Shown here piece by piece: positions 6,072 to 16,411 of a stretch of DNA of 64,000 nt. Where the stretch lies: the NCBI RefSeq assembly GCF_002021815.1, contig NZ_CP019952.1, forward strand, positions 2,821,001 to 2,885,000, in the 5' to 3' direction. The notes beneath the pieces were generated by a model. The model did not search any database and was not told where the DNA came from. It saw only the letters and a list, made by a program, of their open reading frames with translations. The DNA comes from Pseudomonas parafulva. GTDB lineage: Bacteria; Pseudomonadota; Gammaproteobacteria; Pseudomonadales; Pseudomonadaceae. The position numbers and the translations under genes are program-made. Position 1 is the stretch's first letter; each line of letters starts with the position of its first letter.

Positions 6072-8663
6072 TTAAACGGTCGCTTCGAGGAAGTCCTGGG
6101 CAAAGCGTTGCAACACCCCGCCCGCTTCGTAGATCGACACCTCTTCGGCTGTATCCAGACGACAGGTCACCGGCACGTCAAAACGCTCTCCTGTGCGACG
6201 GGTCACCGCCAGGGTCAGGGTAGCGCGGGGAGTACGGATGCCTATCACGTCATAGGTTTCGCTGCCGTCCAGGCCCAGTACCTTACGGTCGGTACCCGGC
6301 ATGAATTCGAGGGGCAAGACGCCCATGCCCACCAGGTTCGTGCGGTGGATGCGCTCGAACCCCTCGGCGACGATGGCCTCCACGCCCGCCAGACGCACCC
6401 CTTTGGCAGCCCAGTCGCGTGAAGAGCCCTGACCGTAATCGGCACCGGCCACGATGATCAGCGGCTGCTTGCGCTGCATGTAGGTTTCGATCGCTTCCCA
6501 CATGCGCATGACCCGGCCTTCGGGTTCAAGGCGTGCCAGCGAACCCTGCCTTACGCTGCCATCTTCATTGCGCACCATCTCGTTGAACAGCTTGGGGTTG
6601 GCGAAAGTGGCGCGCTGAGCCGTGAGGTGATCCCCACGGTGGGTGGCATAGGAGTTGAAGTCTTCTTCAGGCAAGCCCATTTTGGCCAGGTACTCCCCCG
6701 CCGCGCTGTCTAGCATGATGGCATTGGAGGGCGACAGGTGATCGGTGGTGATGTTGTCCGGCAGCAACGCCAGCGGGCGCATGCCACGCAAGGTGCGTTC
6801 TCCCGCCAGGGCGCCTTCCCAGTAGGGCGGGCGACGGATGTAGGTGCTCATGGGGCGCCAGTCGTACAGCGGCGCTACCTTGGGCCCACGGTCTTGCTCG
6901 ACGGCGAACATGGGGATGTAGACCTTTCGGAACTGTTCGGGCTTGACCGCAGCGCGGACCATCGCATCGATTTCTTCATCGCTGGGCCAGATGTCCTTGA
7001 GGCGAATTTCACGGCCATCCGATGCCACGCCCAGCACATCTTTCTCGATATCGAAACGGATCGTACCCGCGATGGCATAGGCCACAACCAAAGGCGGGGA
7101 CGCCAGAAATGCCTGTTTGGCATACGGGTGAATACGGCCATCGAAGTTTCGGTTACCCGACAACACCGCGGTGGTATACAGGTCCCGATCGATGATTTCC
7201 TGCTGGATGGCCGGATCGAGGGCGCCGGACATGCCGTTGCAGGTGGTGCAGGCGAAGGCGACGATGCCGAAGCCCAACGCTTGGAGCTCCGCCTCCAGGC
7301 CTGCCTCTTCCAGGTACAGCTGCACTGCCCTGGATCCAGGGGCGAGGGATGACTTGACCCAAGGCTTGCGCGTCAGCCCCAGCCTATTGGCATTGCGCGC
7401 CAGCAACCCGGCAGCGATCACGTTGCGCGGGTTGCTGGTGTTGGTGCAACTGGTGATGGCTGCAATGATCACCGCCCCGTCCGGCATCTGACCGGGTACC
7501 TGCTCCCAGGCACCTGCGATCCCCATGGCGGCCAGCTCGCTGGTGGCCACCCGGGCATGGGGGTTTGAGGGGCCCGCCATGGTGCGCACCACGCTGGCCA
7601 GATCGAAGTCCAGCGTGCGCTCGTAGACCACCTCGGTAAAGCTGTCAGCCCACAGACCCGCGGTCTTGGCGTAGGTCTCTACCAGTGCGACCTGCTGTTC
7701 CTCGCGGCCTGTCAGGCGCAGGTAGTCGATGGTTTGTTGATCGATGGCGAACATGGCCGCGGTGGCGCCATATTCAGGGGCCATGTTGGAGATGGTGGCG
7801 CGGTCGCCGAGCGTCAGGGCACGGGCGCCTTCCCCATGGAATTCCAGGTAGGCGCCGACCACCTTCTGCTTGCGCAAAAATTCGGTCAGGGCCAATACCA
7901 GGTCGGTTGCCGTCAGGTTGGGCGCCAGTTTACCAGTGAGCTGGACGCCGACGATTTCCGGCAGGCGCATCCAGGAGGCGCGCCCGAGCATGACGTTCTC
8001 GGCCTCAAGCCCGCCCACGCCGATGGCGATGACGCCCAAGGCGTCCACATGCGGGGTGTGGCTGTCGGTGCCGACACAGGTGTCCGGGTAGGCCACGCCG
8101 TCCTCACTGTGTATCACGGGCGACATCTTCTCCAGGTTGATCTGGTGCATGATGCCGTTGCCAGGCGGGATGACATCGACGTTCTTGAACGCTTTCTTGG
8201 TCCAGTTGATGAAATGGAAACGGTCTTCGTTGCGGCGATCCTCGATGGCCCTGTTGCGTTCGAACGCCTGGGGGTCATAGCCGCCACACTCGACGGCCAG
8301 TGAGTGATCGACGATTAGCTGCACTGGCACCACCGGGTTGACCTGGGCAGGGTCACCGCCCTTGTCGGCGATGGCATCGCGCAAGCCGGCCAGGTCGACC
8401 AGCGCGGTCTGACCCAGGATGTCATGGCAGACGACCCGGGCCGGATACCAGGGGAAATCGAGGTCGCGCTTGCGCTCTATCAGCTGGGCCAACGACGCCT
8501 GGAGCGTGCCAGGGCTGCAGCGGCGCACCAGGTTCTCGGCCAGCACACGCGAGGTGTAGGGCAAGCCCTGGTAGGCGCCGGGCTTGATGGCCTCGACGGC
8601 AGCACGGGCGTCGAAGTAATCCAGGTCAGTGCCTGGCAAGGCTTTGCGGTAGGCAGTATTCAT
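6072..8663 (-). CDS. acnD: Fe/S-dependent 2-methylisocitrate dehydratase AcnD
   Basis: AcnD is an aconitase-A-like enzyme that dehydrates 2-methylcitrate and works with PrpF in place of PrpD. Aconitase motifs are plain: CHDILGQTALVDLA near residue 85, DSHTPHVD near 205, the cluster cysteines in ITSCTNTSNP and ACTTCNGMSG, and the C-terminal swivel motif GADYGQGSSRDWAAKG. The start MNTAYRKALPG at 8663 gives 863 residues, the usual AcnD size; a GTG seven codons upstream is less likely. The gene lies between prpC and prpF, the standard arrangement in pseudomonads. No prpD accompanies it in this locus. Confidence 0.95.
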   Translation of the reverse strand: MNTAYRKALPGTDLDYFDARAAVEAIKPGAYQGLPYTSRVLAENLVRRCSPGTLQASLAQLIERKRDLDFPWYPARVVCHDILGQTALVDLAGLRDAIADKGGDPAQVNPVVPVQLIVDHSLAVECGGYDPQAFERNRAIEDRRNEDRFHFINWTKKAFKNVDVIPPGNGIMHQINLEKMSPVIHSEDGVAYPDTCVGTDSHTPHVDALGVIAIGVGGLEAENVMLGRASWMRLPEIVGVQLTGKLAPNLTATDLVLALTEFLRKQKVVGAYLEFHGEGARALTLGDRATISNMAPEYGATAAMFAIDQQTIDYLRLTGREEQQVALVETYAKTAGLWADSFTEVVYERTLDFDLASVVRTMAGPSNPHARVATSELAAMGIAGAWEQVPGQMPDGAVIIAAITSCTNTSNPRNVIAAGLLARNANRLGLTRKPWVKSSLAPGSRAVQLYLEEAGLEAELQALGFGIVAFACTTCNGMSGALDPAIQQEIIDRDLYTTAVLSGNRNFDGRIHPYAKQAFLASPPLVVAYAIAGTIRFDIEKDVLGVASDGREIRLKDIWPSDEEIDAMVRAAVKPEQFRKVYIPMFAVEQDRGPKVAPLYDWRPMSTYIRRPPYWEGALAGERTLRGMRPLALLPDNITTDHLSPSNAIMLDSAAGEYLAKMGLPEEDFNSYATHRGDHLTAQRATFANPKLFNEMVRNEDGSVRQGSLARLEPEGRVMRMWEAIETYMQRKQPLIIVAGADYGQGSSRDWAAKGVRLAGVEAIVAEGFERIHRTNLVGMGVLPLEFMPGTDRKVLGLDGSETYDVIGIRTPRATLTLAVTRRTGERFDVPVTCRLDTAEEVSIYEAGGVLQRFAQDFLEATV

Positions 8664-8768
8664 ATCGTTATCAGGCTCGGTCACGGATGGCGTTCAAGGG
8701 TGCGCGTGCGGGCAGACATGCTGGGCCACCCCGCGAGGCCAACAAAGTCTGCGCGGGGTGGGCGACCA

Positions 8769-9896
8769 TCAGCGCTGCTCGATCGGTACGAACTGACGCT
8801 GTTCGACGCCGATGTATTCGGCACTCGGACGGATGATGCGATTGTTCTCACGCTGCTCGAACACGTGCGCTGCCCAGCCGGTAAGCCGCGAGCAGACGAA
8901 GATCGGGGTGAACAGCTTGGTCGGTATGCCCATGAAGTGATACGCCGAGGCATGGTAGAAATCGGCGTTGGGGAATAAGCGCTTTTGCTCCCACATGGTC
9001 TTGTCGATGGCTTCGGACACCGGGTACAGCACCGTGTCGCCCACCTCATCGGCAAGGCGCTTGGACCACCCTTTGATCACCTCGTTACGCGGGTCGGACT
9101 CTTTGTAGATGGCATGGCCAAAGCCCATGATCTTGTCTTTGCGCTCGAGCATGTGCAGCAACTCGGTCGTCGCTTGTTGCGGGCTCTGGAAGCGCTCGAT
9201 CAGCTCCATGGCCGCCTCGTTGGCGCCGCCGTGCAGCGGGCCGCGCAGCGAACCGATGGCGGCGGTGACGCAGGAGTACAGGTCGGACAAGGTCGAGGCG
9301 CACACGCGGGCGGTGAAGGTGGAGGCGTTGAACTCGTGCTCGGCATAGAGAATGAGCGATACGTTCATCACCTTCACATGCAGCTCACTGGGCTGCTTGC
9401 CATGGAGTAACTGCAGGTAGTGGCCGCCCAAGGTGTCCTGGTCACTGACACAGTCGATGCGCACGCCGTGATGGCTGAAGCGGTACCAGTAACACATGAT
9501 CGCTGGGAAGACGGCCAGGAGCCGGTCGGTCTTGTCGCGCTGGGCATCGAAGGTGAGCTCGGGCTCCAGGGTTCCGAGCACGGAGCAGCCCGTGCGCATC
9601 ACGTCCATCGGGTGAGCGTCGCGCGGGATGCGCTCCAGTACTTCTTTCAACGCCTGGGGCAGGTCGCGCAGGCCCTTGAGCTTGTGCTTGTAGTCGGCAA
9701 GCTCGGCCTGGCAGGGCAGCTCGCCATACAACAACAGGTAAGCCACCTCCTCGAATTCGGCGTGGGCAGCCAGGTCGCGGACGTCATACCCGCGATAGGT
9801 CAGCCCTGCGCCGGCCTGACCTACCGTCGACAGGGCCGTCTGACCGGCAACCTGACCGCGTAGGCCTGCGCCGCTGAGTACTTTTGCTTCGGCCAT
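8769..9896 (-). CDS. prpC: 2-methylcitrate synthase
   Basis: PrpC condenses propionyl-CoA with oxaloacetate to give 2-methylcitrate, the first step of propionate removal in the cytoplasm. The sequence is a short-type citrate synthase of 375 residues with the typical GLTYRGYDVRDLA, HPMDVMRTG, LHGGANEAAM and MGFGHAIYK blocks; the latter two hold catalytic histidines of the family. The start ATG has GGAG at 6-9 bases. The leader just before it reads AACAAG then AAGAAAGGAG on the coding strand, which loosely resembles the A-rich Hfq/Crc catabolite-repression motif; this is only a weak hint. It is third in the operon, after the regulator and prpB. Confidence 0.96.
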   Translation of the reverse strand: MAEAKVLSGAGLRGQVAGQTALSTVGQAGAGLTYRGYDVRDLAAHAEFEEVAYLLLYGELPCQAELADYKHKLKGLRDLPQALKEVLERIPRDAHPMDVMRTGCSVLGTLEPELTFDAQRDKTDRLLAVFPAIMCYWYRFSHHGVRIDCVSDQDTLGGHYLQLLHGKQPSELHVKVMNVSLILYAEHEFNASTFTARVCASTLSDLYSCVTAAIGSLRGPLHGGANEAAMELIERFQSPQQATTELLHMLERKDKIMGFGHAIYKESDPRNEVIKGWSKRLADEVGDTVLYPVSEAIDKTMWEQKRLFPNADFYHASAYHFMGIPTKLFTPIFVCSRLTGWAAHVFEQRENNRIIRPSAEYIGVEQRQFVPIEQR

Positions 9897-9991
9897 GGTG
9901 CTTCTCCTTTCTTGAACTTGTTATGGAATGCAGGCTGGCTAACCCTTATCTACCCCTGAACCAGGGCGCTGCAGCGCGCGCAGTGGGCAGG

Positions 9992-10882
9992 TCAGCCTTT
10001 TTTCTGGGCAAACAATGCATCGAGACTTTGCTCGAAAGCGTGATAGCCAATGGCGTCGTAAAGCTCCATGCGTGTCTGCATGGTATCGATCACGTTCTTC
10101 TGCGTGCCATCACGGCGCAGGGCGGCGTAGACGTTCTCGGCAGCCTTGTTCATGGCGCGGAACGCCGACAGTGGATACAGCACCAGCGACACATCGACCG
10201 AGCCCAGCTCTTCGGTGGTGTACAAAGGCGTGGCACCGAACTCGGTGATGTTAGCCAGGATGGGGGCCTTGACCCGGTCGGCGAACGTCTTGTACATCGC
10301 AAGTTCGGTGATGGCTTCGGGGAAGATCATGTCCGCGCCGGCCTCGACACAGGCGGCCGCCCGATCCAGCGCCGCATTGAGCCCCTCGACCGCCAGCGCA
10401 TCGGTACGGGCCATGATCACGAAGCTGTCATCAAGGCGGGCATCGACCGCCGCCTTGATGCGATCGACCATCTCCTGCTGGGTGACGATTTCCTTGTTCG
10501 GACGGTGGCCACAACGCTTGGCGCCCACCTGATCCTCGATATGAATGGCCGCGGCGCCGAACTTGCTCATGGCGCGCACGGTGCGGGCAACGTTGAAGGC
10601 CGAGGCACCGAACCCGGTGTCCACGTCCACCAGCAGTGGCAGGTCGCACACATCAGTGATGCGCCTGACATCGGTCAGCACGTCGTCCAGGCCACTGATG
10701 CCCAGGTCAGGTAAACCCAGGGAGCCTGCTGCCACACCGCCGCCGGACAGGTAGATGGCCTTGAAACCGGCACGCTTGGCCAGCAAGGCGTGGTTGGCAT
10801 TGATGGTGCCGACCACTTGCAGCGGGCGCTCGGCGGCCACTGCGTCGCGAAAACGTTGGCCTGGGGTACTCTGGACGGTCAT
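9992..10882 (-). CDS. prpB: 2-methylisocitrate lyase
   Basis: PrpB cleaves 2-methylisocitrate to pyruvate and succinate, the last step of the methylcitrate cycle. The isocitrate-lyase superfamily signature KRCGHRP sits near residue 121, preceded by DVDTGFG and IHIEDQ, which provide Mg-binding acidic residues. Length (296 residues) is normal. The ATG overlaps the stop codon of the upstream GntR gene by four bases, which implies translational coupling and a single transcript. The 95-base gap before prpC shows no terminator. Confidence 0.97.
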
Positions 10883-11595
10883 TGTTCACCTCGTGTGCTG
10901 TGGGTGTGGTCGCCTTGGTAATGGCGCTCGATGTTGCGTTTGGACGCAGCGATGTGACGACGCATCAACAGCTCGGCCAACTCGCCGTCACCCTCGGCGA
11001 TGGCGTCCAGGATGCGGTGGTGCTCGGCGAAGGCCTGACGCGGCCGATTGGGTGTGGCCGAGAACTGGATACGGTACATGCGCACCAGTTGGTACAGCTC
11101 TCCACAGAGCATCTTGACCAAGGTCTGGTTGCCGCTGCCCTGGATGATGCGATAGTGAAAATCGTAGTCACCTTCCTGCTGGTAGTAGCCCACGCCCGCC
11201 TGGAAGGCAGCATCGCGCTCATGGGTTTCCAGCACCTGGCGCAGCTCGTCGATGTCGGCTCGGCCCATGCGCTGGGCCGCCAGGCGGCAGGCCATGCCTT
11301 CGAGCGACTCGCGGATTTCATAGAGCTCGATGAGTTCGGCGTGACTCAGTGAAACCACCCGTGCGCCCACATGGGGCACACGAACCAGCAGGCGCTGGCC
11401 CTCGAGGCGGTGAATGGCTTCACGCAGCGGGCCTCGGCTGATGCCATAGGTGCGGGCAAGCTCCGGCTCGGAAATCTTGCTCCCCGGGGCTATGTCCCCC
11501 CGTACAATGGCCGCCTGAATCCGCCTGAAGACATGCTCGGACAGGGTTTCCGATTCCTCGTTGCCAGTCGGGTTACCCGTTGAGAGCGCCTGCAT
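10879..11595 (-). CDS. GntR/FadR-type regulator of the methylcitrate operon
   Basis: The protein has an N-terminal winged helix-turn-helix (about residues 18-85, with [16 protein letters not shown]) and a C-terminal FCD effector domain with the histidines typical of that fold. It is the first gene of the prp operon and overlaps prpB, so it probably controls its own operon in response to a methylcitrate-cycle intermediate. The family relationship is visible; the effector is inferred. The ATG at 11595 has AAAAGG about ten bases before it. Candidate operators flank the promoter directly upstream. Confidence 0.92.
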
Positions 11596-11889: not shown

Positions 11890-12426
11890 ATGAAACTGAC
11901 ACCCTTTGCTTTGCTGATTAGCCTCCTCCTGTTGCCGGCCCTGAGCCAGGCAGCCGGCAAGACCGTGTACGGTCTGAACGAATATGCTCGCCTGGGCGAC
12001 CTCGACCTCGAAGTGGCGGCCAAGCTCGACACCGGGGCCAAGACAGCCTCGCTCAGCGCCCGCGACATCAAGCGTTTCAAGCGCAATGGCGAAAGCTGGG
12101 TGCGCTTCTACCTGGCCATCGATGCTGCCCATTCCCACCCCATCGAACGCCCGCTGGCGCGCGTGAGCAAGATCAAGCGCAGGGCGGGCGACTACGACGC
12201 CGAATCGGGCAAGGCCTACACCGCACGCCCCGTCATCGAGCTGGACATCTGCATGGGCCAGGCCAGGCGCACCATCGAAGTCAACCTCACCGATCGCAGC
12301 GCTTTCCAGTTCCCACTGTTGATCGGCTCGGAGGCTTTGAAGCATTTCGACGCCCTGGTCGACCCAAGCCTTAAATATGCGGCCGGCAAACCTGCCTGTG
12401 CCACCGACGCTCCCAAAGCAGAGTAA
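11890..12426 (+). CDS. Exported retropepsin-like aspartic protease (RimB/DUF785-type)
   Basis: A signal peptide covers residues 1-21 and ends at a typical Ala-rich site, so the enzyme should act in the periplasm. The following domain carries KLDTGAKTASLSA, with the DTGA aspartic-protease motif at residues 47-50, as in retropepsin-like proteases found beside RimK-type ligases; databases often mislabel these as ATP-dependent zinc proteases. The protein has 178 residues, a normal size for a one-domain dimeric aspartic protease. An AGGA site precedes the ATG. The gene is five bases upstream of the membrane-protein gene, so the three genes 11890-14947 form one operon. Substrate unknown. Confidence 0.85.
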   Translation: MKLTPFALLISLLLLPALSQAAGKTVYGLNEYARLGDLDLEVAAKLDTGAKTASLSARDIKRFKRNGESWVRFYLAIDAAHSHPIERPLARVSKIKRRAGDYDAESGKAYTARPVIELDICMGQARRTIEVNLTDRSAFQFPLLIGSEALKHFDALVDPSLKYAAGKPACATDAPKAE

Positions 12427-12431
12427 TTCCG

Positions 12432-13967
12432 ATGCGCTCTCTTACCCTCCATCTGAAAGTCCTGATCACCGTCCTGGTGTTGCTGGGCGTAGCGGTCACG
12501 GCTTATCAGATCTTCGTACTCGGCATCCCGGTGACCGAGGATGAAACGGACGATCTGTGGAACATCGATGCCAAGATCGAATTTGTGGCCAGCACCAAGG
12601 ACCCGGTAAAGGTCCAGATGTTCGTGCCGCCCCTGAATCGGGATTACGTGAGCCTCAACGAAAGCTTCATTTCCAACAACTATGGTGTGAGCGTCAACCG
12701 CGCCGACGGCAACCGCAAGGTCACCTGGTCCGCGCGGCGCGCCAGCGGCAACCAGACCCTTTACTACCGGCTGGTGCTGACCAAGCGCTATAGCACCGAG
12801 AAAGCCAAGGTCAAGGGCCCGACCTTCCGCGACAGCCTCGCAGTAGAAGGCCCCGAGAAGATCGCCGCCGAAGCCTTGATGGCACCGATTCGTCAGCATT
12901 CGGCCGATGTCGAGACGTTCGTCAGCGAAACCATCAAGCGCGTCAACAACCTCAACGACGACAACGTCAAGCTGCTGCTGGCAGGCGATACCTCACCGAT
13001 GAAGAAGGCGCAGGTCATTGACCTGCTGCTGTCCATTGCCCACGTGCCGATGGAGAAGGTGCACACGATCCGCCTGGTGGCCGACACCCCGCAAACCCCG
13101 GAACTGTGGCTGCGCAGCTTCAACGGCAACGACTGGCTGTATTTCAACCCCGAGACCGGTGAGCAAGGCCTGCCCAACGATCGGCTATTGTGGTGGACCG
13201 GGGATGACAACCTGATCACGGTCGATGGCGGCAAGCGGGCCAACGTCACCTTCAGCATGAACAACAGCGAGATGAACGCCATCCGCCTGGCCAAGCTGAC
13301 AGACGAGAACACCGACGCCGACTTCCTCGAATACTCCCTGTATGGGCTGCCGCTGCAGACCCAGCAGACCTTCATGATCATGGTCATGATTCCCATCGGC
13401 GTGCTGGTGATTCTGGTGCTGCGCAACCTGATCGGCATCCAGACCCTGGGTACCTTCACACCGGTCCTGATCGCCCTGGCCTTCCGCGAAACACAGCTGG
13501 GCTTCGGGATCGTGCTGTTCACCGTCATCACCGCGCTGGGGCTATCGCTGCGCTCCTACCTCGAGCACCTGAAGCTGCAGATGCTGCCCCGCCTTTCGGT
13601 GGTGCTGACATTCGTCGTGGTATTGATTGCCGCCATCAGCCTGTTCAGCCACAAACTGGGCCTTGAGCGCGGCTTGTCGGTCGCGCTGTTCCCGATGGTG
13701 ATCCTGACCATGACCATCGAACGCCTGTCGATCACCTGGGAAGAACGCGGCGGCGGTCATGCCATGAAAGTGGCCATCGGCACCTTGTTCGCCGCCTCTC
13801 TCGCGCACCTGCTGATGATGGTACCGGAGCTGGTCTACTTCGTGTTCACCTTCCCGGCCGTGCTGTTGATTCTGGTGGGCTTCATGCTGGCAATGGGTCG
13901 CTATCGCGGCTACCGCCTGACCGAGCTGGTCCGCTTCAAGGCATTCCTGAAGAAGGCGGACGCCTGA
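12432..13967 (+). CDS. Membrane protein with inactive transglutaminase-like domain and seven C-terminal TM helices
   Basis: The chain has a first membrane helix at about residues 9-30, a periplasmic region at about 35-305, and a hydrophobic C-terminal half from about residue 313 that can form seven helices. The periplasmic part resembles the transglutaminase-like fold described for proteins linked to ATP-grasp amide ligases, but I see no Cys-His-Asp triad, so it is likely a binding rather than a catalytic domain. Length (511 residues) and neighbours agree with that family. The stop overlaps the ligase start by one base (TGATG). A role in moving or presenting a peptide product across the membrane is inference. 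Confidence 0.82.
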   Translation: MRSLTLHLKVLITVLVLLGVAVTAYQIFVLGIPVTEDETDDLWNIDAKIEFVASTKDPVKVQMFVPPLNRDYVSLNESFISNNYGVSVNRADGNRKVTWSARRASGNQTLYYRLVLTKRYSTEKAKVKGPTFRDSLAVEGPEKIAAEALMAPIRQHSADVETFVSETIKRVNNLNDDNVKLLLAGDTSPMKKAQVIDLLLSIAHVPMEKVHTIRLVADTPQTPELWLRSFNGNDWLYFNPETGEQGLPNDRLLWWTGDDNLITVDGGKRANVTFSMNNSEMNAIRLAKLTDENTDADFLEYSLYGLPLQTQQTFMIMVMIPIGVLVILVLRNLIGIQTLGTFTPVLIALAFRETQLGFGIVLFTVITALGLSLRSYLEHLKLQMLPRLSVVLTFVVVLIAAISLFSHKLGLERGLSVALFPMVILTMTIERLSITWEERGGGHAMKVAIGTLFAASLAHLLMMVPELVYFVFTFPAVLLILVGFMLAMGRYRGYRLTELVRFKAFLKKADA

Positions 13968-14947
13968 TGTTCGGCCTGATCAAGACGTGGAAAGCCCTGG
14001 AGGCCCGGGGCATCATGGGTATCAATCGGCGCAATGCAGACTATGTACTCAAGTACAACAAGCGCCACCTGTACCCGATCGTCGACGACAAGATCATCAC
14101 CAAGGAGCGCGCCCTGGCAGCCGGCATCCATGTGCCGGAAATGTACGGCGTCATCGAGACGGAAAAGCAGATCGAGAAGCTTGACGAGATCATCGGCGGG
14201 CGCAGCGACTTCGTGATCAAGCCGGCTCAGGGCGCCGGGGGTGATGGCATCATGGTCATCGCCGACCGTTTCGAAGACCGTTACCGGACGGTGTCCGGCA
14301 AGATCATCAGCCATGAGGAAATCGAGCACCAGATTTCCAGCATCCTCACCGGGCTGTACTCGCTCGGCGGCCATCGCGACCGCGCCCTGATCGAGTACCG
14401 CGTCACCCCGGACCAGATCTTCAAGAGCATCAGTTATGAAGGCGTACCGGACATCCGCATCATCGTCCTGATGGGCTACCCGGTCATGGCCATGCTGCGC
14501 CTGCCCACCCGCCAGTCCGGCGGCAAGGCCAACCTACACCAAGGCGCCATCGGTGTGGGCGTGGATTTGGCCACAGGCGTGACGCTGCGTGGCACTTGGC
14601 TGAACAACATCATCAGCAAGCATCCCGATACCACCAACGCAGTGGACGGCGTGCAGCTGCCGACCTGGGACGGGTTCATGAAGCTGGCCGCCGGCTGCTA
14701 TGAGCTGTGCGGCCTGGGCTACATTGGCGTGGACATGGTGCTGGACCAGGAAAAAGGCCCACTGATCCTCGAGCTCAACGCTCGCCCAGGGCTGAATATC
14801 CAGATCGCCAACGATTGCGGCCTGACGCAACGCACCCATGCGATCGAGGCGCATCTTGAGGCACTGGCCAAAGAGGGTGTGACCGAAGATGCCGAGCAAC
14901 GCGTGCGCGTTGCCCAAGGCCTGTTCGGCCACAGGCCCGGTCACTAA
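13967..14947 (+). CDS. Alpha-L-glutamate ligase-like ATP-grasp protein
   Basis: This cytosolic ATP-grasp enzyme of 326 residues is related to RimK. The nucleotide-binding lysine and glycine loop are in DFVIKPAQGAGGDGI near residue 85, and the Mg-binding acid and Asn are in LELNARPGL near residue 269. The N-terminal block (GINRRNADYVLKYNKR) is characteristic of this subgroup rather than of ribosomal-protein-modifying RimK. It should form an amide bond between an amino acid, perhaps glutamate, and an unknown acceptor. It is co-transcribed with the protease and the membrane protein; the conserved trio suggests ligation inside, handling at the membrane and trimming outside. Confidence 0.85.
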   Translation: MFGLIKTWKALEARGIMGINRRNADYVLKYNKRHLYPIVDDKIITKERALAAGIHVPEMYGVIETEKQIEKLDEIIGGRSDFVIKPAQGAGGDGIMVIADRFEDRYRTVSGKIISHEEIEHQISSILTGLYSLGGHRDRALIEYRVTPDQIFKSISYEGVPDIRIIVLMGYPVMAMLRLPTRQSGGKANLHQGAIGVGVDLATGVTLRGTWLNNIISKHPDTTNAVDGVQLPTWDGFMKLAAGCYELCGLGYIGVDMVLDQEKGPLILELNARPGLNIQIANDCGLTQRTHAIEAHLEALAKEGVTEDAEQRVRVAQGLFGHRPGH

Positions 14948-15067: not shown

Positions 15068-16411
15068 ATGCCGACCTGCACGTTGTACGCCCTGCCCTAC
15101 CAGCCTGACCCGGCTACCTACTTTTCCTGCTTGCGTGATGCTCCAGGCGCCATTTTGCTCGACAGCGCTCGCCCCGGCGCTGAACGCGGCCGCTTCGACC
15201 TGCTGAGCGCGTGGCCAGTACAGCAGTTGCAGGTGCTGGCGGACGAAACAGGGCGCGCCTTCCTGCAGCGGTTGCGCGCTGCGCTGGCTCGCTTGGGCGC
15301 TGCACATCTACCGCCAGAGAGCGAGCTGCCGTTTGCCGGTGGGTTGATCGGTTACCTGAGCTACGATTTTGGTCGTCGGCTGGAACACTTGCCGACCCAG
15401 GCGGTGGACGACCTCGGCCTGCCGGATGCCCAACTGGGCGTGTACGCATGGGCGTTGGTTACCGACCACGCCACCCGTACCAGCCAACTGGTGTTTCACC
15501 CAAGCCTGGGCCGTGAAGAGCGTGAGCGACTGGTGCGCCTGTTCGAGGGGTGTGAACCTCGGGCCAGCGGGGCTTTCAAGCTGCTCGCCCCAATGGCTGG
15601 TGACCTTGCGCCCAAGCAGTACCATGCAGCCTTCGAGCAGGTTCAACGCTACATCCAGGCAGGTGACTGCTACCAGATCAACCTGACCCAACGGTTTCGC
15701 GCTGCTTGCCAGGGCGATCCCTGGCGAGCTTATCAAGCCCTTCGCCAGGCATGCCCAACGCCCTTCTCCGGGTTCCAGCAATTGGCAGACGGCAGCGCCT
15801 TGTTGAGCTTCTCGCCCGAGCGGTTCATTCGGGTCAGCAAGGGTCATGTGGAAACCCGTCCGATCAAGGGCACCCGTGCGCGGGGTCACGATGCGGCCGA
15901 GGATGCGCGCAATGCCGAGCAACTGCAGCAAAGCCCCAAGGACCGGTCGGAAAACCTGATGATCGTGGACTTGTTGCGCAATGACTTGGGCCGCACGTGC
16001 GAGATTGGCTCCGTCAAAGTGCCTGAGCTGTTCAGCCTGGAAACCTACCCCAACGTGCACCATCTGGTCAGCAGCGTGACAGGCACGCTGGCGGCTGGCA
16101 GGGACGCACTGGATCTGATCGGCGACAGCTTTCCTGGCGGCTCGATCACCGGCGCGCCCAAGATCCGCGCGATGCAGATCATCGATGAGCTTGAACCCAC
16201 TCGCCGAGCGCTTTACTGCGGATCGCTGCTGTATGTCGATGTACGCGGCGAGATGGACAGTTCCATCGCCATCCGCAGCCTGTTGATCAAGGACGGCCAG
16301 GTCAGTTGCTGGGGCGGTGGCGCCGTGGTGGCCGACTCCGAATGGCAGGCCGAGTACGAGGAGTCAATTGCCAAAGTGCGGGTGCTGATGCAGACCTTGC
16401 AGGGGCTTTGA
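15068..16411 (+). CDS. pabB: Aminodeoxychorismate synthase component I
   Basis: PabB aminates chorismate to 4-amino-4-deoxychorismate for folate synthesis, using ammonia from a separate glutamine amidotransferase (PabA), which is not in this window. Family motifs are YQINLTQRF near residue 200, PIKGTRARG near 265, DLLRNDLGR near 302 and [12 protein letters not shown] near 358; the PIKGT form is typical of PabB, while anthranilate synthase usually has PIAGT. Length (447 residues) is normal. The gene is 120 bp from the ligase gene and appears to have its own transcription unit. Confidence 0.95.

Follow-up and report, generated by a model that had tools for sequence, protein, structure and literature searches.

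The rloABC operon of Pseudomonas and related systems

Three adjoining genes of Pseudomonas parafulva (class Gammaproteobacteria) encode a secreted aspartic peptidase, a membrane protein with an inactive transglutaminase domain, and an ATP-grasp protein. They were analyzed within a 64,000-nucleotide stretch of its genome (positions 2,821,001 to 2,885,000 of contig NZ_CP019952.1, assembly GCF_002021815.1), called the window here. Judged by sequence, the trio is the known rloABC operon, already characterized in Pseudomonas aeruginosa in 2025 (mBio, PMC12239564). What is new here is a sister family of loci, termed type II, that pair relatives of the membrane protein RloB and the ATP-grasp protein RloC.

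The P. aeruginosa study assigns rloABC to PA1768-PA1767-PA1766 and describes RloA proteins as retropepsin-like dimers for which crystal structures exist (PMC12239564). The in vitro substrates of RloA are runs of 8 or 10 glutamates; it leaves runs of 6 or fewer uncut. RloA D48A fails to complement, indicating that the catalytic aspartate is needed in vivo, and mutants of the glutamate-contacting residues R114 and R137 also fail in vivo (PMC12239564). When P. aeruginosa lacks RloA, RloA2, and RloA3, it fails to grow under salt-free conditions; this triple mutant has short, wide cells, higher sensitivity to some beta-lactams, and poor biofilm (PMC12239564). Deletion of rloB or rloC in the triple mutant fully rescues salt-free growth and partly rescues the other defects (PMC12239564). 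In two other studies, insertions in PA1766, PA1767, and PA1768 appear in the suppressor table of work on an exopolysaccharide (PMC7314104), and Shewanella released more vesicles after losing an inactive transglutaminase gene (PMC12096838). The inactive transglutaminase-like protein of PMC10318531 is a different one. In P. aeruginosa, rloABC affects low-osmolarity survival, cell shape, biofilm, and beta-lactam tolerance.

In the PgsBCA poly-gamma-glutamate synthase system of Bacillus, too, a ligase works with partners in the membrane, and the hydrolase is a separate extracellular enzyme. PgsBCA consists of other protein families and makes a gamma-linked polymer, so its likeness to rloABC would be one of analogy only. 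A 2009 survey of amidoligases reportedly mentions the rlo-type trio. The RimBK system likewise consists of a retropepsin-like protease of family PF05618 and a glutamate ligase of the ATP-grasp type; it is cytosolic, works without a membrane protein, and has RpsF as its substrate (PMC12239564).

The window encodes RloA, RloB, and RloC

The preliminary description of this DNA reported three genes spaced by 5 bp and then overlapping by 1 base. The open reading frames and the sequence bear this out: all three are co-directional at 11890-14947 (+), and the ATG of rloC at 13967 has a single base in common with the rloB stop. The same description did not recognize the trio as an operon that already has a name, mutants in print, and RloA crystal structures (PMC12239564). 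The P. aeruginosa operon and the trio in the window share the three families, their order, their compartments, and the polyglutamate-contact residues of RloA.

RloA passes the curated cut-off of PF05618 (E 2.9e-45) and scores 342.8 bits against NCBIfam model NF052262 (cut-off, 280). It also matches the crystal structure of P. fluorescens RloA, 9g58 (E 1.6e-87), an entry titled as a zinc protease. By its sequence, 9g58 probably belongs to the structures of PMC12239564. RloA has a leader (all leaders in this analysis were judged by eye) and residues that align with the published polyglutamate contacts. The DTGA motif lies where the preliminary description had put it, and the Asp47 column is aspartate in 28 of 28 aligned rows.

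RloB passes the curated cut-offs of PF14400 and PF14402 and scores 1076.6 bits against NF052267 (cut-off, 900), an NCBIfam model named osmotic stress tolerance membrane protein. Its predicted structure matches 3isr, a transglutaminase fold, here fused to membrane helices. The columns of the Cys-His-Asp triad read P-E-N, so the triad of an active transglutaminase is absent, and RloB did not match the active-type Transglut_core family (PF01841) at E 0.001. The earlier label of inactive transglutaminase was therefore correct.

RloC, an ATP-grasp protein encoded directly 3' of RloB, passes PF14397 (E 9.4e-98) and scores 563.4 bits against TIGR02291 (cut-off, 314.2). The near-invariant ATP-grasp positions in 28 aligned rows are kept. 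Two of them, Glu269 and Asn271, are presumably the metal ligands of ATP-grasp enzymes.

The source genome, a single contig of 4,690,783 bases, has three PF05618 genes: rloA, a gene passing the RloA2 model (293.9 bits; cut-off, 250), and a gene that we assign to rimB by position because it adjoins a RimK gene (471.5 bits; cut-off, 331). A search for further PF05618 genes in this genome found none; therefore, no gene is left for RloA3, which P. aeruginosa has in addition to RloA and RloA2. Should the logic of P. aeruginosa apply to this genome, the phenotype would be expected after two deletions instead of three.

This gene content also bears on whether RloC and RloA could be a second RimK-RimB pair acting on the ribosomal RimK target. 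RloA and RimB are both PF05618 proteins, and RloA cuts RpsF carrying eight glutamates in vitro (PMC12239564). However, RloA has a leader, the genome has its separate RimK with an adjoining PF05618 gene, and rimB deletion shows no interaction with rloA mutants (PMC12239564). The trio itself was tried as RimBK and rejected: RloA scores 80.5 bits against a RimB cut-off of 200, and RloC scores 19.2 bits against a RimK cut-off of 331. These data make a ribosomal role for the trio highly improbable.

RloB proteins fall into three types

Of 274 genomes sampled over the class, 57 had a match to PF14402, 129 to PF05618, and 85 to TIGR02291 (46 of these over the cut-off). The 58 RloB places sorted into 48 of type I, 5 of type II, and 5 of type III, the last count including a marginal hit under the family cut-off (G077). 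In type I, the gene immediately upstream, in the same orientation, is rloA at 46 of 48 places, six of these neighbors having come from reading the loci rather than from the profile-search listing. RloC lies next downstream in 46 of 48, and at the two misses (G114 and G241) the RloB contig breaks off. Type II places have RloC in 5/5 and RloA in 0/5, and type III places have neither in the expected neighbor position (5/5).

The types also differ in the catalytic columns. Among 24 aligned type I rows, Cys occurs in 0, His in 1, and Asp in 11; among four type III rows, the counts are 0, 2, and 4. The Cys-His-Asp triad is complete in all five type II proteins found through PF14402 in the class sample, four of which are identical in their rows to proteins from the named genomes described below. 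In a tree of RloB, each type forms one side of a branch. The tree was made by a quick method with no outgroup, and its long branches of types I and III meet.

At type III loci (L029, L030, L031, and L033), RloA relatives on the other strand adjoin RloB in G132 and G196 (L030 and L033). Long RloA relatives were seen at L124:747-1745 (332 amino acids [aa]) and L039:5947-6735 (262 aa); by eye, their N termini look like lipoprotein leaders.

Proposed roles of RloA, RloB, and RloC

The suppression genetics require that RloB and RloC produce or enable a harmful agent upon loss of RloA. The best explanation, and one that we consider probable, is that RloC makes glutamate chains, RloB exposes them, and RloA trims them. 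RloC, which we infer to be an active glutamate ligase, would spend ATP at the inner membrane face beside RloB to add glutamates, probably in an alpha-linked chain that is either free or on an acceptor. RloB, the presumed transporter, would pass or present this presumed product on the periplasmic side, and RloA, as a dimeric secreted peptidase, would cut the periplasmic chains and limit their length. Without RloA and its paralogues, uncut product would build up and be harmful above all at low osmolarity, presumably because a periplasmic polyanion would add an osmotic load that is worst without salt.

The preliminary description had proposed a single system that ligates inside, moves the product at the membrane, and trims it outside. 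This idea fits the data and is partly supported. That the genes act as one unit is supported by the suppression of P. aeruginosa defects upon rloB or rloC deletion (PMC12239564) and by the conserved gene order. Trimming outside gains support in vitro from the cleavage of glutamate runs, and the D48A protein does not complement (PMC12239564). For ligation inside, the near-invariant ATP-grasp positions stand, as does a fold comparison in which the predicted ligase part of a fused RloC relative resembles RimK, ArgX, and LysX; what did not stand is a distinction from D-Ala-D-Ala ligases, which score nearly equally. The part of PMC12239564 consulted reports no RloC activity. Movement of the product at the membrane is conjectural; it would draw on a weak fold resemblance of RloB without sequence support. 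The remark that the substrate is not established still holds: the search for an in vivo substrate in P. aeruginosa yielded none (PMC12239564).

Several observations count against glutamate chain synthesis and trimming. Single rloB and rloC deletions make cells somewhat more ampicillin sensitive and misshapen (PMC12239564), so RloBC is more than the source of a poison. A search for periplasmic polyglutamate proteins found none (PMC12239564). In sequence, RloC matches solved RimK chains over about 31 residues only (E 0.0066). In the fold comparison, the RimK score is nearly reached by D-Ala-D-Ala ligases and D-cycloserine synthetase, which makes glutamate a tentative assignment for RloC. Furthermore, RloA is missing beside type I rloB-rloC in G120 and G167 (L120 and L122). 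Each of these genomes has a single PF05618 gene, a RimB adjoining RimK, and no exported RloA; the prediction that every rloBC genome carries an exported RloA thus fails.

There is a second explanation, which we regard as unlikely: RloB and RloC may attach a single amino acid, or a small number of them, to a cell wall or envelope acceptor (a peptidoglycan stem peptide, an envelope protein, or a glycan) that RloA edits, with polyglutamate serving as a surrogate in vitro. This would suit the nearly identical Z scores of D-Ala-D-Ala ligases and RimK in the modeled comparison, the name of the RloC family PF14397 (sugar-transfer associated), and the published phenotypes of cell shape and beta-lactam sensitivity (PMC12239564). 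However, RloA needs at least 8 consecutive glutamates in vitro, and the R114 and R137 mutants fail in vivo (PMC12239564).

The membrane part of RloB bears on a third explanation. In its model, this part weakly resembles RnfA/NqrD-like Na+-pump subunits, a resemblance that is within chance and is a further point against the glutamate chain explanation. In profile comparison with PF02508, hhalign probabilities were 0.13-0.55%, against 0.28-0.40% for reversed and 0.07-0.15% for shuffled controls. The fold lead to kinship with Rnf/Nqr gained no support from these profile scores, which are no better than those of the reversed controls. The fold resemblance would suit an RloB whose main role is transport or sensing, under regulation by RloC and subject to cleavage by RloA, with the ligase acting on RloB or being noncatalytic. 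Such a role might also account for type III RloB, which has no adjacent RloC (0/5, with one marginal hit) and is adjoined by RloA relatives in two genomes. It is nevertheless improbable, given that the ATP-grasp positions of RloC are near-invariant, that RloC adjoins RloB in 46/48 type I and 5/5 type II places, and that the transporter resemblance has no support from profile comparison.

Type II RloB retains the transglutaminase cysteine

Type II loci resemble rloABC in that they encode homologues of the RloB membrane protein and of the RloC ligase, either as neighboring genes or as a fusion. They differ in that the transglutaminase Cys is kept, the locus has no RloA, and a tetratricopeptide repeat (TPR) protein, often together with a barrel-like protein, follows downstream. 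A scan of named genomes, many of them metagenome-assembled, yielded 91 confirmed loci, of which the best 80 were analyzed (L040-L119; class sample loci, L024-L028). The peptide patterns that found these 80 loci covered the His and the positions flanking the Asp, so only the Cys count is unbiased. All 78 readable rows have the Cys, and all 78 have the His, a count biased by the search; 67 have the Asp, and the remaining 11 have Gly (7) or Cys (4) in that column. Both type II RloB proteins that were scanned gave matches to PF01841 (E 2.2e-17 and 4.7e-17).

An RloC relative begins at most 226 bases from the end of RloB in 79 of 80 loci, with the single miss at a contig edge. By open reading frames, 24 of 78 loci have it fused to RloB and 41 have it as a separate gene; in 12 of the other 13, it was seen by tblastn only. 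At 72 of 80 loci, the TPR protein begins no more than 1.4 kb past RloB, and the eight misses have less than 1 kb of sequence left. A barrel-like protein lies 2.6-3.1 kb after RloB in 38 of 80; we read it as a barrel from its leader and sequence. Of four such proteins, none has a Pfam family, and NCBIfam matches are weak, one being to an exopolysaccharide outer membrane protein. Among the 42 loci in which it was not found, 16 have less than 3 kb after RloB and the rest have at least 6.7 kb; in those loci, the protein is either absent or too diverged. No RloA match at E 1e-4 occurred in any of the 80 loci.

The type II records are labeled Pseudomonadota, Nitrospirota, Myxococcota, Bacteroidota, Spirochaetota, and Campylobacterota. 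Five are strain named: two Kangiella, two Aliikangiella, and one Anaeromyxobacter. Locus L119 comes from Kangiella spongicola. A literature search, with most subscription journals outside its coverage, found no paper on these loci.

RloA proteins in type II genomes

A search of 49 type II genomes for PF05618 found no match in 30 and at least one in 19, and in 15 of these 19, one copy lies beside or is fused to RimK. The PF05618 proteins of G280 and G298 have no visible leader, and that of G303, beside RimK, has a hydrophobic stretch that could not be judged. In G314, G317, and G320, a leader can be seen; the G317 protein lies just upstream, on the same strand, of a second RloB with a type I score (343 bits). 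None of the five strain-named genomes has a PF05618 protein with a leader. Leader-bearing RloA is thus rare where the active type occurs, and of the three cases, one is part of a type I pair.

RloA may supply in trans the function that the type II transglutaminase site has in cis. Functional replacement would suit this pattern, yet shared ancestry alone could produce it, since the tree puts each type on one side of a branch. Taken together, the data allow a tentative reading, possible rather than probable, in which RloB and RloC form the core of an envelope system wider than rloABC. In the type II branch, an active periplasmic transglutaminase and the TPR protein, often with an outer membrane barrel, would attach, cut, or export the ligase product; in the Pseudomonas branch, where the site would have died, RloA would have taken over the processing. 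If true, glutamate-chain chemistry would occur at the cell envelope of several phyla. The sister family gives a clear prediction of the role of RloA, and type II is a lead worth following as a single polypeptide, sometimes with the ligase in the chain, in which the product might be trapped.

Features and neighborhood of the locus

Features of the rloABC locus, in window coordinates
Feature	Position	Strand	Description
rloA	11890..12426	+	secreted retropepsin-like aspartic peptidase, 178 aa
rloA leader	11890..11955	+	about residues 1-22, hydrophobic, judged by eye
rloA catalytic Asp47 codon	12028..12030	+	within DTGA; corresponds to D48 in P. aeruginosa RloA
rloA-rloB gap	12427..12431	+	5 bp
rloB	12432..13967	+	inactive transglutaminase domain and about 7 membrane helices in one chain, 511 aa
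rloB transglutaminase-like domain	12549..13262	+	about residues 40-277; catalytic columns P-E-N
rloB membrane domain	13353..13961	+	about residues 308-510; model helices, hydrophobic segments, PF14402 at residues 260-505
rloC	13967..14947	+	cytosolic ATP-grasp, alpha-L-glutamate ligase-like protein, 326 aa
rloC Glu269 and Asn271 codons	14771..14779	+	E-x-N, near-invariant in alignment

Promoter and terminator patterns at the locus showed no excess over shuffled sequence. The next gene, 120 bp past rloC at 15068-16411 (+), is of the pabB type (aminodeoxychorismate synthase component I), and no terminator-like site was found on the + strand between the two. PF14401 had no match in the source genome; the control genomes were equally silent, making this result uninformative. 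The closest relatives of RloB are Pseudomonas proteins, several of them named P. putida, with up to 97% identity. Upstream, a divergent group of genes at 6072-11595 (-) includes a GntR/FCD regulator by Pfam and NCBIfam. The other open reading frames of this group (lyase, synthase, and aconitase-like) resemble a 2-methylcitrate set.
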